A DNA stretch of 64,000 nt from Streptomyces sp. 549 (lineage in GTDB: Bacteria; Actinomycetota; Actinomycetes; Streptomycetales; Streptomycetaceae): contig NZ_JASKMT010000003.1 of assembly GCF_030124175.1 (NCBI RefSeq), positions 248,001-312,000 of the forward strand. Reading direction: 5' to 3'. The translations under genes and the position numbers were made by a program. Of the stretch, positions 3,641 to 8,209 are shown piece by piece. Within the stretch, counting starts at the first letter, position 1. Each line of letters opens with the position of its first letter. The notes beneath the pieces are model-generated. The model ran no database searches and was not told the origin of the DNA. It saw nothing but the letters and a program-made list of their open reading frames with translations.

Positions 3641-4150
3641 TCAGGCCGGTGCGGTCAGGGCGGCCAGGTCCGCGTCCCGCCAGCGTTCACCCACGCCGGT
3701 CAGCGTCACGGTCCGCTCGTCCGGGCCGCCGTCCTCCGCACCGGCCGCGTCCGCGCCGATCGCGCGCTCGATGACCACGTGCAGCCGGTCGTCGGACAGC
3801 TCCTCGACCTTGCCGTCACCCCACTCGACGACCACCACCGACTCCGGCAGCGAGACGTCGAGGTCGAGGTCCTCCATCTCGTCCAGTCCGCCACCGAGCC
3901 GGTAGGCGTCCACGTGCACGAGGTCCGGGCCGCCGTGCAGCGACGGGTGCACGCGGGCGATCACGAAGGTCGGCGAGGTGACCGCGCCCCGCACCCCCAG
4001 CCCCTCCCCCAGACCGCGGGTGAGCGTCGTCTTGCCCGCGCCCAGCTCACCGGTGAGCAGCACCAGGTCCCCGGGGCGCAGCACGGCGGCCAGCCGCCGG
4101 CCCAGTTCCTGCATACGTTCCGGCGTCGTGACGGTGATCGCAGTGCGCAT
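3641..4150 (-). CDS. tsaE: t6A biosynthesis ATPase TsaE
   Basis: TsaE is the P-loop ATPase that drives the TsaB-TsaD t6A cycle. The 169-residue protein shows the Walker A motif GELGAGKTT (34-42), the family motif SPTF (59-62), HVDAYRL (79-85) and the Walker B-like VVEWG (107-111). The ATG at 4150 gives the usual family length; the frame stays open far upstream but that extension reads through the promoter of the divergent ABC-F leader. The tsaB gene is about 1.2 kb downstream, separated by two small transcription units, so tsaE is not tightly coupled to it here. Confidence 0.95.
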   Translation of the reverse strand: MRTAITVTTPERMQELGRRLAAVLRPGDLVLLTGELGAGKTTLTRGLGEGLGVRGAVTSPTFVIARVHPSLHGGPDLVHVDAYRLGGGLDEMEDLDLDVSLPESVVVVEWGDGKVEELSDDRLHVVIERAIGADAAGAEDGGPDERTVTLTGVGERWRDADLAALTAPA

Positions 4151-4249
4151 ACCGACGATGCTAAGCGCTGCCCGGCCCTCCCCCGGTCCCTCCCCGGCGG
4201 ACGGCCGCCAGGGGCCGGAAAATCCGGGAAGCCGCGGCGCCGGCGCTGC

Positions 4250-4255
4250 TAGCCT
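4250..4255 (+). promoter_or_regulatory. -10 box of a leaderless promoter for the ABC-F leader peptide
   Basis: TAGCCT ends 7 bases before the ATG at 4263, so transcription should start at or next to the start codon (leaderless mRNA). An AAAAT tract at 4219-4223 sits just upstream of where the -35 would lie, a layout reminiscent of WhiB7/WblC-activated antibiotic-resistance promoters. That regulator assignment is a guess. Confidence 0.45.
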
Positions 4256-4262
4256 CGTTGCC

Positions 4263-4307
4263 ATGGCTCGAGGTATCTGGTCGCAGAGGACGCGCTCCGC
4301 CCGCTGA
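4263..4307 (+). CDS. Leader peptide (14 aa) upstream of the ABC-F gene
   Basis: ATG GCT CGA GGT begins a 14-codon ORF encoding MARGIWSQRTRSAR, stopping about 100 bases before the ABC-F start. It begins at the predicted transcription start, and its arginine-rich end plus the hairpin downstream are the ingredients of ribosome-mediated attenuation. In that known mechanism for ABC-F resistance genes, antibiotic-stalled ribosomes on a short ORF release the downstream gene. That it works this way here is inference; there is no coding-potential test on so few codons. Confidence 0.5.
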   Translation: MARGIWSQRTRSAR

Positions 4308-4357
4308 CGGCGGCGCCCCTCACTCTGCTGAATCCGCGCACGCCGTCCCGGTTCCCG

Positions 4358-4383
4358 CCGGGCGGCCACTTCCCGCTGCCCGG
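4358..4383 (+). terminator. Hairpin between leader peptide and ABC-F gene (possible attenuator)
   Basis: CCGGGC (4358-4363) pairs with GCCCGG (4378-4383) around a 14-base loop, about 50 bases after the leader-peptide stop and 26 bases before the ABC-F start. No U-tract follows, as is common in Streptomyces. An attenuator role is inferred from position. Confidence 0.35.
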
Positions 4384-4603
4384 CTCCCCTGCGAGCTGCG
4401 GAGCACGCGTTGAACCCCACCTCACGCCCTGATGCCACCCCTGCCACCACCCCCGCCACCACCGTTGCCACCGCCCCTGCCCTCAACGCCGAAGCCGGGT
4501 CACCGCCCGTCGGGGCCGGGGGCAGCGCGCACGTCCGCGCCGACGGCGTTGGCGTCGTGCGCGCGTCCCGACGGGTGCTGGACGGCGTCTCGGTCACCGT
4601 CTC

Positions 4604-4656
4604 CTGGCTTTGTCCACGAGAATGGACAGCAATTGTTCAGCACTTCGGACAGCACT
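4604..4656 (+). repeat. Left terminal inverted repeat of the cassette
   Basis: This 53-bp repeat begins CTGGCTTTGTCCACGAG and includes GGACAGCA twice, which could be transposase-binding sites. It matches the complement of 6593-6645 except at repeat positions 6, 18, 19, 25 and 42. Confidence 0.9.
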
Positions 4657-4878
4657 GGGGGGAGCTCTCGAATCGAACAGCAAGCAGTTGCAAGGAGCGG
4701 CGTTACGGCATCGAACCGATCGCCCAACTGCGCGATACTCCTCGGCTCTCACCGCGCCAAGGGCGGCGCGGTCCAGTTCTCTTCGCGCGCCGCCAGATGG
4801 GTGACAGACACCGGTAGGCCGGGGCGGGTGGGGCCCCTGCCGACCGGTGATCAGGACCGGTCGGCGGGAGCGCGGTGA

Positions 4879-6231
4879 TCAGCTGGCGTCTTCCTCCGCG
4901 GCGATCTGTGCCTGCACTTCGGCGCTGTCGGTGCCAGCTGCGCGGTTGCCGTAGCCGCGGTGGATGACCATGAGTTGGTCTTGCGTGCCGTTCTTGTCGC
5001 GGTAGACGACGACCGCTGGTCCGGCGCCGCTGGTGTGGCCGGGGAACTTCTGGTCGTCGGTCCAGGGGCCGCTGCCGGGCTTGTAGCTGGTCCACCACAG
5101 GTTCTGGTCCCCGTTGCCGTGGCCGCGGTGGACGCAGTAGAGCCTGTTGTCGAAGACTGCCAGGCCGGGCCCTTCCAGGCTGGAGTGGGCGCGGAACTTG
5201 TTGTCCGAGCCCCAGCCCCCGGCGCTCGTGTAGGTGGTGTGCCACAGGGAGGTGTCGGCGCCGCTGCCTCGGTGGACCATGTGGAGCGTGCTGCCATACA
5301 CCGCCAGTGCAGGGTTCGAGGCTGTGGAGTGGCCGGGGAGCGGGGTGTCTTGGGCCCAGCCTCCGGCGCTGGTGAAGGTGGTGTGCCACAACGTGCTGTC
5401 AGAGGTGGCGCCCTTGTGGACGCAGTGCAGCTTCCCGTCGTACACCGCCAGAGCCGGGCCGACAGAGCTGGAATGGGCGCCGAGCGGCCTGTCTGCGGAC
5501 CAGCCACGGCCGTCGAAGGTGGTGTGCCACAACTTGGTGTCGCTGCCGTGCCCGCGGTGGACGCAGTGCAGCTTCCCGTCGTACACCGCCAGAGCCGGGC
5601 CGGCGGCGCTGGAGTGCGCGCCGAACTCCGTGTCCACAGACCAGCCGTTGTCGGGGTCGAACGAGGTCCACCACAGCTGCTGGTCGTCGAAGCCGCGGTG
5701 GACGAGGATCAGACGGCCGTTGAACACCGCCGCCGCCGGGTTCGCGGCGCTGGCATGGGCCGGGAACATGGTGTCCTCGTTCCACTGAAAGTGACCGGTA
5801 TCCGCGCTCCGACCGAACACCGTCCACCACAAGTTGGGGTCCTCGGAGGGATTGATACCGATCGGGATGAGCATCGTCGGCGAGATCCACGGCGAGACCA
5901 GCTTGCAGCCATACCCCCTCGACACCGCCTGCACCCAGACCTTCTGCGCCATGGCCGCCAGAGTGACCAGCGTCGACAGGGGCTCCTTGAGAGCTTCGCC
6001 GAGGATGTCCGCGAGGAGGTCCTTGATCTCGAGGTACGCGTCCACCGCCGCCTGGTTCAGGTGAACCTCAAACCCCCACCACTTCGCCTCGAACCGAACG
6101 GTGGCGCCCAGCGTCTCAAGCTCCTTGCGTGCGTGCTCCGCCCTTTCCACCAGCTCCGGCGGTGGCGTGTCGTAGAGCCCGCTGTTCTGCGGCGCGCTGT
6201 CCTGGGACTCGGTGGACTGGTCAATGGCCAT
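4879..6231 (-). CDS. Cytoplasmic six-bladed beta-propeller / lectin-like protein (cassette cargo)
   Basis: This 450-residue protein has no signal peptide. Its N-terminal ~110 residues contain an amphipathic helix and a WWG-EVHL segment followed by hydrophobic helices, then come six repeats of about 47 residues. Each repeat has an LW(W/H)T(S/T)(F/Y) strand, a GW-D---HSS turn and a GPALAVYDGKLHCVHRG-type strand, which suggests a six-bladed propeller like those in bacterial lectins and sialidase-like proteins. Two blades share 46 identical bases (5416-5461 and 5557-5602), so blades have duplicated recently. I chose the ATG at 6231 because it follows GGAGAGG. The gene fills the cassette. Ligand and function are unknown; carbohydrate binding is only a suggestion from the fold. 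Confidence 0.7.
   Translation of the reverse strand: MAIDQSTESQDSAPQNSGLYDTPPPELVERAEHARKELETLGATVRFEAKWWGFEVHLNQAAVDAYLEIKDLLADILGEALKEPLSTLVTLAAMAQKVWVQAVSRGYGCKLVSPWISPTMLIPIGINPSEDPNLWWTVFGRSADTGHFQWNEDTMFPAHASAANPAAAVFNGRLILVHRGFDDQQLWWTSFDPDNGWSVDTEFGAHSSAAGPALAVYDGKLHCVHRGHGSDTKLWHTTFDGRGWSADRPLGAHSSSVGPALAVYDGKLHCVHKGATSDSTLWHTTFTSAGGWAQDTPLPGHSTASNPALAVYGSTLHMVHRGSGADTSLWHTTYTSAGGWGSDNKFRAHSSLEGPGLAVFDNRLYCVHRGHGNGDQNLWWTSYKPGSGPWTDDQKFPGHTSGAGPAVVVYRDKNGTQDQLMVIHRGYGNRAAGTDSAEVQAQIAAEEDAS
5416..5602 (-). repeat. Identical 46-bp blade repeats inside the propeller gene
   Basis: Positions 5416-5461 and 5557-5602 are identical and 141 bp (47 codons) apart, exactly one propeller blade. 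Other blades are diverged, so this pair reflects recent duplication or conversion. Confidence 0.8.
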
Positions 6232-6592
6232 GGTTTTTCCTCTCCACTGGTGAGTGTCGTACCGGCTTGCCCGGGCTCGTGACTCGAGGATTCCGGCGGA
6301 CATCAGGATGCACGCATAGCGCAGAGTGATGACTGCATAGAGTCACTGATTGGCCTCAGGGCTACTCAATCTGGCGGAAAACAGCCACGACCAGCCTTAC
6401 GGTGAAAACCGACCCGGCTGTCGCCAGGCGCGGACGGGAGCGACGGCGCACGCGCCCGCCCACGGCGGTGTCCTACCTGGCTTGAGCCCCGGCACCGCGT
6501 CGAGCCACGGCCCTTCCTGCCAGGCGGTCCGCTCCCACTGGCTGTTCCCGACTGCCCCGACCCTGCCCTCAAATCGAACGCCGGCAGGGCTG
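6232..6592. other. Non-coding cassette segment upstream of the propeller gene
   Basis: About 360 bp between the propeller start and the right inverted repeat. I see no supported ORF. The first 130 bases are more AT-rich than the surroundings, with a short AGTGA/TCACT inverted pair at 6325-6347, and should hold the cargo promoter. Confidence 0.5.
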
Positions 6593-6645
6593 AGTGCTGT
6601 CCGGAGTGCTGAACAATTGCCGTCCAAACTCGTGGACAAGGCCAG
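6593..6645 (-). repeat. Right terminal inverted repeat of the cassette
   Basis: Complement of the left repeat with five mismatches. It ends GCCAG, followed directly by TCTC and the resumed ABC-F coding sequence at 6650. Confidence 0.9.
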
Positions 6646-8209
6646 TCTCCGCGCGGTCGCGCGTCGCCGTCGTAAGCGAGAACGGCCGCGGCAAGACCAC
6701 GCTGCTGCACGTCCTCGCCGGAGTGGTCACCCCGGACGAGGGCACCGTGCGGCGCACCGGGACGATCGGCCTGGCCCGGCAGGAGCTGTCCGCACGGGAC
6801 GGCGAGACCGTCGGCAGCCTGACGGCGGAGGCGCTGGGCCCGCCGCTCGCGGCGCTCGCCGCGCTGGACGCGGCGACCCTCGCACTCGCCGAGGGTGAAC
6901 CCGCTGCCGACGACCGCTACGCCGCCGCGCTCGACGCCGCGACCCGGCTCGACGCGTGGGACGCCGGGCGCCGGGTCGACGTGGCCCTCGCGGCGCTCGG
7001 CGCCTGCCGCGACCGCGACCGGCCGCTGTCCACGCTGTCGGTCGGGCAGCGCTACCGGGTCCGGTTGGCGTGCCTGCTCGGCGTGCGGCACGACGTGCTG
7101 CTGCTCGACGAACCGACCAACCACCTGGACGCCGACGGCCTGGACTTCCTGACCCGCAGACTGCGCGCGCACGACGGCGGGCTCGCCGTCGTCAGCCACG
7201 ACCGGGCGCTGCTGCGTGACGTCGCGAACCGGTTCCTGGACCTCGACCCGACCCGCGACGGCAGGCCGCGCCTGTACGCGGGCGGCTACGACGCCTGGCA
7301 GGCGGCCCGGCGCCGGGAGCGCGAGCGCTGGGAGCAGGACCACGAGGAGCAGCAGGCCGAGCACCGGCGGCTTCAGGAGGCGGCGTCGCGGGCCCGTGAC
7401 CGGCTCTCCACCGGCTGGCGGCCGGACAAGGGGACCGGCAAGCACCAGCGCCAGTCCAGGGCCCCGGGTGTCGTCCAGGCGCTGAAGCGGCAGCAGGACG
7501 CCTTGGAGGCGCACCGGGTCGACGTGCCGGAGCCGCCGCCCGTGCTGCGGTGGCCCGACCTCGCGGTGCGGCCCGGGGCGCCGCAGGCGCGGGCGCACGG
7601 GGTGGCGGTGGACGGGCGGCTGCCCGGCCCGGTCGATCTCACCCTCGACGGCGGCGACCGGCTGCTCGTCACCGGGCCCAACGGCGCGGGCAAGTCCACG
7701 CTGCTCGCCGTGCTGGCGGGTGCGCTGGAGCCGACGGACGGGCACGTCCGGGCGGCCCGGGGGGCGCGGATCGTCCTGGTGACGCAGGAGACCGCCGAGC
7801 AGGACCCCGCGCTCACCGCCCGCGAGGTGTACCGGCGCCATGTGGAGCGCCTGGTGGCCGGCGGGACGGTGCGGGACGCCGACGCCGTGCCGCTCGGCAC
7901 GCTCGGCCTGCTGGGGTCGGACGCCCTGCGGACTCCGGTGGGCCGGATGTCGCAGGGGCAGCAGCGGCGGCTGGACCTGGCGCTGGCGCTGTCCGGGCGT
8001 CCCGGGCTGGTCCTGTTGGACGAGCCGACCAACCACCTGTCGTCAGCGCTGGTCGAGGAGCTGACCGGCGCGATCCGCGGCACGAGCGCTGCCGTCGTCG
8101 TCGCGACGCACGACCGGCAGTTGCTGCGGGACCTCGCGGACTGGCCCCGGCTGGACCTGCCCGGGGGTCCCGGGCCGGGCGCCCGATCCTGCACCGCCCG
8201 GACGTGACG

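Follow-up and report, generated by a model that had tools for sequence, protein, structure and literature searches.

What might explain why an ABC-F gene of Streptomyces sp. 549 is split by a 2040-bp segment that has long inverted ends, one gene of its own and no transposase? The segment lies in a 64,000-nucleotide stretch of the genome, here called the window, and a preliminary description had proposed that it is a non-autonomous transposable cassette. That proposal is borne out by its long inverted ends, the target duplication, the single cargo gene, an empty site in a relative and the recurrence of such elements elsewhere.

The cassette and its insertion site

The positions of the cassette features are collected in Table 1. 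The exact edges were fixed by comparing many copies, through flush duplications in 19 cassettes (6-8 bp) and 29 IS21 elements (6-7 bp), and the window element thereby has the terminal 5'-TG...CA-3' of IS21-type ends. As first described, the inverted repeats match at 48 of 53 positions; they are 91% complementary over 53 nt, and all other inverted repeats of the region are far weaker. The insertion is flanked by the 6-bp direct repeat GTCTCC. A duplication of 4-6 bp had been claimed, with TCTC as the short form; TCTC is indeed found on both sides, but merely as part of GTCTCC, and the 6-bp reading is the one that stands. Excision in silico of the element together with one GTCTCC restores the ABC-F reading frame with no base lost, just as had been stated. 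The preliminary description had also staked its case on the existence of an empty allele in related strains, and there is one: in a Streptomyces relative (L279) the ABC-F gene is uninterrupted at the same codon, and the DNA is 80% identical across the junction. Immediately upstream of the interrupted gene, at window positions 3641-4597, is an ATPase-like ORF that appears TsaE-like by eye.

Table 1. Positions of the cassette, its ends, cargo and target site within the window
Feature	Position	Strand	Basis
ABC-F gene, 5' part	4410..4604	+	in-frame junction; uninterrupted homologue at L279
Target duplication GTCTCC, left copy, 6 bp	4599..4604		flush direct repeat; empty site in relative
Left inverted end (53 bp in the preliminary description)	4604..4656	+	27.3 bits against IS21-end model; base 4604 is part of the duplication
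Whole cassette, TGGC...GCCA, 2040 bp	4605..6644		flush duplications across cassettes and IS21 elements
Left-end motif copy 1 (TGTCCACGAGAATGGACAGCA), IS21 L1/R1 equivalent	4611..4631	+	23-bp motif spacing in 69/101 ends
Left-end motif copy 2, IS21 L2/R2 equivalent	4634..4654	+	23-bp motif spacing in 69/101 ends
Cargo gene, 450 aa	4879..6231	-	single long high-GC3 CDS between ends
Right inverted end (53 bp in the preliminary description)	6593..6645	-	21.6 bits against IS21-end model; base 6645 is part of the duplication
Right-end motif copy 2	6595..6615	-	placed by symmetry
Right-end motif copy 1	6618..6638	-	placed by symmetry
Target duplication GTCTCC, right copy, 6 bp	6645..6650		flush direct repeat; empty site in relative
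ABC-F gene, 3' part	6651..8207	+	in-frame junction; uninterrupted homologue at L279

Between the ends there is exactly one gene and no transposase, in agreement with the preliminary description. The cargo protein is built of repeated 47-48-aa WW/W motifs and is propeller- or lectin-like, and it has no match in Pfam, NCBIfam or PDB. The view of the element as a carrier of a single propeller cargo is right for the window, but across the family this is just one among about 33-35 cargo families.

IS21-type ends

The ends had been thought to match no recognised insertion sequence family. This was wrong: judged by their sequence, the window ends are IS21-type, with TG...CA termini and a 23-bp motif period, and they are homologous to the ends of Streptomyces istA-istB elements. 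IS21 ends contain at least two repeats each (PMC11208146), the repeats are spaced 23 bp apart and IstA requires two complete repeats (PMC10122671), and ISLxc1, an actinobacterial IS21 element, has 54-bp ends beginning with TG and a 6-bp repeat (PMC2516522). The repeated motif already noticed within each end of the window cassette is present in two copies, 23 bp apart. Across the family, the ends contain a motif like TGTTCACGAGAACGGACAGCA, with a second copy 23 bp inward in 69 of 101 ends and a third, weaker copy detectable in 46 of the 101, mostly 64-72 bp inward of the first; this agrees with the two or more direct motif repeats per end, at the 23-bp spacing given in PMC10122671, of IS21 ends.

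The connection with IS21 emerged with one element, L078, which proved to have cassette-like ends enclosing a decayed istA and an istB. Many intact elements, gathered by a search with the L078 IstB and then by one with an IstA alignment, were recovered from Streptomyces, Kitasatospora, Actinacidiphila, Crossiella, Nocardia and others. One end is located about 145 bp before istA, the other 0.1-3.6 kb after istB, and in nearly all copies a passenger gene lies between istB and the far end. By eye, the post-istB passengers of this clade of Streptomyces and other actinomycetes (L198-L277) are acetyltransferase-, methyltransferase- and HAD-like, among others. Every one of the 101 cassette-type ends scores when compared with a model of the IS21 ends; the median of 27.8 bits is not materially changed by the inclusion of two L078 ends used to build the model, and 2020 shuffled ends score at most 4.6. 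Intermediate ends (L086, L087, L090 and L098) reach 40-51 bits. The window element does not have the istA and istB genes of an autonomous IS21.

Recurrence, cargo and target duplications

A search of the window genome with the end sequence found the two ends of the cassette as its sole copies. Absence of the ends from any other location would have counted against a mobile element; they recur at many locations in other Streptomyces genomes. The left-end query matched 36 of 296 genomes, and a model of 32 ends matched 68 of 150 sampled genomes, an upper estimate for cassettes since the weakest model matches include true IS21 ends. When 247 genomes from across the class were sampled, the end model matched in Streptomyces only, with no match in the non-Streptomyces actinomycetes of that sample. 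The ends are also present in 57 plasmid records (56 from Streptomyces, one from Kitasatospora), and the phage records searched gave no match. Pairing of ends produced 57 pairs, from which 53 elements of 0.3-2.7 kb were catalogued.

The 53 elements carry about 33-35 unrelated cargo families, a range given because the 37 groups obtained by clustering include two of inserted or parental transposase genes (ISL3 in L077, IS21 in L078) and two of MITE-like elements. Cargos include SMI1/KNR4 proteins, a metallophosphoesterase, GNAT acetyltransferases, a methyltransferase, a glyoxalase-like protein, a flavodoxin-like oxidoreductase, a LysR regulator, a short-chain dehydrogenase, a cation efflux protein and a PLP enzyme, among others; many are of unknown function and often annotated merely as 'hypothetical protein'. 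The SMI1/KNR4-family (immunity-type) cargos at L059:6099-6758 and L062:6150-6692 are on linear plasmids, near the end of the record. Two MITE-like short members, of 309 and about 291 bp, are found at L091:3196-3506 and L092:3291-3583.

Flush target duplications survive in 19 of the 44 cassettes that have both native ends (6 bp in ten, 7 bp in eight, 8 bp in one, 4 or 5 bp in none), and no flush duplication survives in the other 25. When the left flank of one element was paired with the right flank of another, one of 1892 combinations matched over at least 5 bp. Intact IS21 copies have duplications of equal length, flush and of 6 or 7 bp, in 29 of 41 testable cases, with a null of 1/1640. The duplication lengths of the cassettes fit a 6-bp stagger with chance extension, and equally a mixture of 6 and 7 bp.

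Proposed mobilisation in trans

We consider the window element to be an IS21-type mobile insertion cassette (MIC) that the IstA and IstB proteins of a passenger-carrying IS21 clade move in trans, with a probability of roughly 0.85. It shows three features of a MIC, namely homology of its ends with the ends of a known insertion sequence, a parent-like duplication and a passenger gene replacing the transposase. We infer a trans action of IstA and IstB on the cassette, and an origin of the cassettes from passenger-carrying IS21 elements through loss of istAB. The autonomous parents are probably the passenger-carrying IS21 elements (istA, istB and one cargo) found in actinomycetes including Streptomyces, or else a closely related sister clade. 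In such a mechanism, a passenger gene would replace istA-istB between IS21-type ends; an autonomous IS21 element would provide IstA in trans, which, assisted by the helper ATPase IstB, would bind both of the 23-bp-spaced motifs of each end and cleave at the terminal CA, and the cassette would then be joined to the target at positions staggered by 6 bp, in this case at GTCTCC in the ABC-F gene.

Where might the helper reside? The expectation that the ends would be found around a transposase elsewhere is realised in part: homologous ends flank istA-istB elements, but the search turned up no helper whose ends are nearly identical, the best IS21 copy scoring 31.5 bits against the cassette-end model, compared with roughly 40-67 for most cassettes. 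Because no IS21 element matches that model equally well, the helper may belong to an unsampled sister clade, or IstA may tolerate the difference. A search for IS21 transposases in 28 cassette genomes yielded nothing beyond the passenger-carrying clade already described and unrelated IS21 elements that lack these ends, and co-occurrence of strong cassette ends with the IstB clade among 150 genomes was not significant (17/43 versus 30/107, p = 0.18). In the window genome, a 72-contig draft, neither an IS21 transposase nor an IstB of the relevant clade scored above the cut-off, and the window copy is therefore probably stranded at present.

The lack of a helper in that genome would also suit a different history, in which each cassette is a relic of a local istA-istB deletion from a passenger-carrying IS21 and is now immobile, as would the many copies that have no duplication or one decayed end. 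We regard this as unlikely. The commonest cargo, a protein of about 399 aa with the motif FVCAGCGAELTVPLSQV and no match in Pfam or NCBIfam, is found in nine istAB-less cassettes (L026, L027, L033, L036, L040, L055, L057, L064 and L066) that occupy different contexts, two of them with distinct clean duplications, CCCAAG and GCAGGCG. Likewise, in a different species a 96% identical homologue of the window cargo adjoins a cassette end at a different site (L030), the opposite end there being lost. Both cases support mobility without istAB. Furthermore, the cassette cargos differ from the passengers that the recovered IS21 copies carry, with matches of only 25-47%.

A second alternative to mobilisation by IS21 is that the cassettes belong to another transposon of the Mu/Tn7/Tn552 type, with a DDE transposase that has a Mu C-terminal domain, an ATPase and multi-site TG...CA ends. 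Such elements have multi-site ends and 5-7-bp duplications, and are in these respects like the cassettes; Mu_transpos_C proteins are encoded in 10 of 24 cassette-bearing genomes. However, 12 loci around PF09299 proteins have no cassette-type end, except for one neighbouring cassette, and it is IS21 elements that bear homologous ends at the expected positions, making this alternative improbable.

Mobilisation by ISL3-family elements was suggested by transposases (PF01610) lying directly beside variant cassette ends in L039, L041, L077 and L084, and was rejected. The ends of these ISL3 elements are distinct (GGTTCTGGC...), and their duplications of about 8 bp lie within the cassette end, from which it follows that the 'variant ends' are ISL3 insertions into cassette ends, with 8-9-bp repeats; the cassette duplications are 6-7 bp, and 6 bp in the window, as opposed to the 8 bp of ISL3. 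The inserted elements are at L041:5457-7789, L084:4709-6699, L039:5676-8168 and L077:3050-5381. Three of the four hit the same end-motif spot (CGTTCTCG-like), as happens in an IS21 end in L178/L274, and these ISL3 elements look like insertion sequences for which the ends of a different mobile element serve as target. Finally, inverted repeats that are a chance or static feature would agree with the single copy in the window genome, and are rejected: the ends recur with varied cargos across 68 of 150 genomes, flush duplications accompany them, and a relative has the empty site.

Relation to known mobile elements

MICs, transporter insertion sequences and IS21 are known kinds of element (PMC3129680, PMC3281130). 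The closest precedent for an IS21-type MIC is IS231-MIC231 of Bacillus cereus, in which a MIC is moved in trans by its cognate element (De Palmenaer et al. 2004, as cited in PMC3281130). Both have insertion-sequence-type ends and a target duplication around unrelated genes, with no transposase, but the window-type cassettes have IS21-type rather than IS4/IS231-type ends, carry about 33-35 cargo families genus-wide, and would presumably be mobilised in trans. With IS21, IS5376 and ISLxc1 they share TG...CA ends, at least two motifs 23 bp apart, homologous end sequence and a direct repeat in the same size range (5 bp in IS5376, 6 bp in ISLxc1); unlike members of the IS21 family, they lack istA-istB. 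The apparent IS21 parents resemble transporter insertion sequences (tIS) in bearing a passenger gene beside istA-istB, whereas the window element has no transposition genes. The two short members are reminiscent of MITEs, although most members of the family carry a full-length gene. Integron gene cassettes are likewise mobile single-gene units with diverse cargo, but here there are target duplications, long inverted ends and a transposon-type end structure.

A literature search returned no report of IS21 MICs or of passenger-carrying actinomycete IS21 elements, which is weak evidence because most subscription papers and ISfinder were outside its coverage; we did not find the IS21-ended cassette family or its genus-wide cargo range described.

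MICs are usually regarded as uncommon oddities confined to a few insertion sequence families. IS21-ended cassettes are present in up to nearly half of the sampled Streptomyces genomes and on dozens of plasmids, usually with one ordinary gene each. It is possible, if still tentative, that passenger IS21 elements and the larger pool of istAB-less cassettes, which share ends, form a genus-wide system of IS21-based gene shuttling, in which one helper could move many single genes among chromosomes and plasmids. If true, this would amount to an equivalent of integron cassettes built on a transposon. With the structure of the IS21 transpososome now solved, the ends can be tested directly as substrates of IstA, and mobilisation of this kind would be an unrecognised route for the spread of single genes in the main antibiotic-producing genus.
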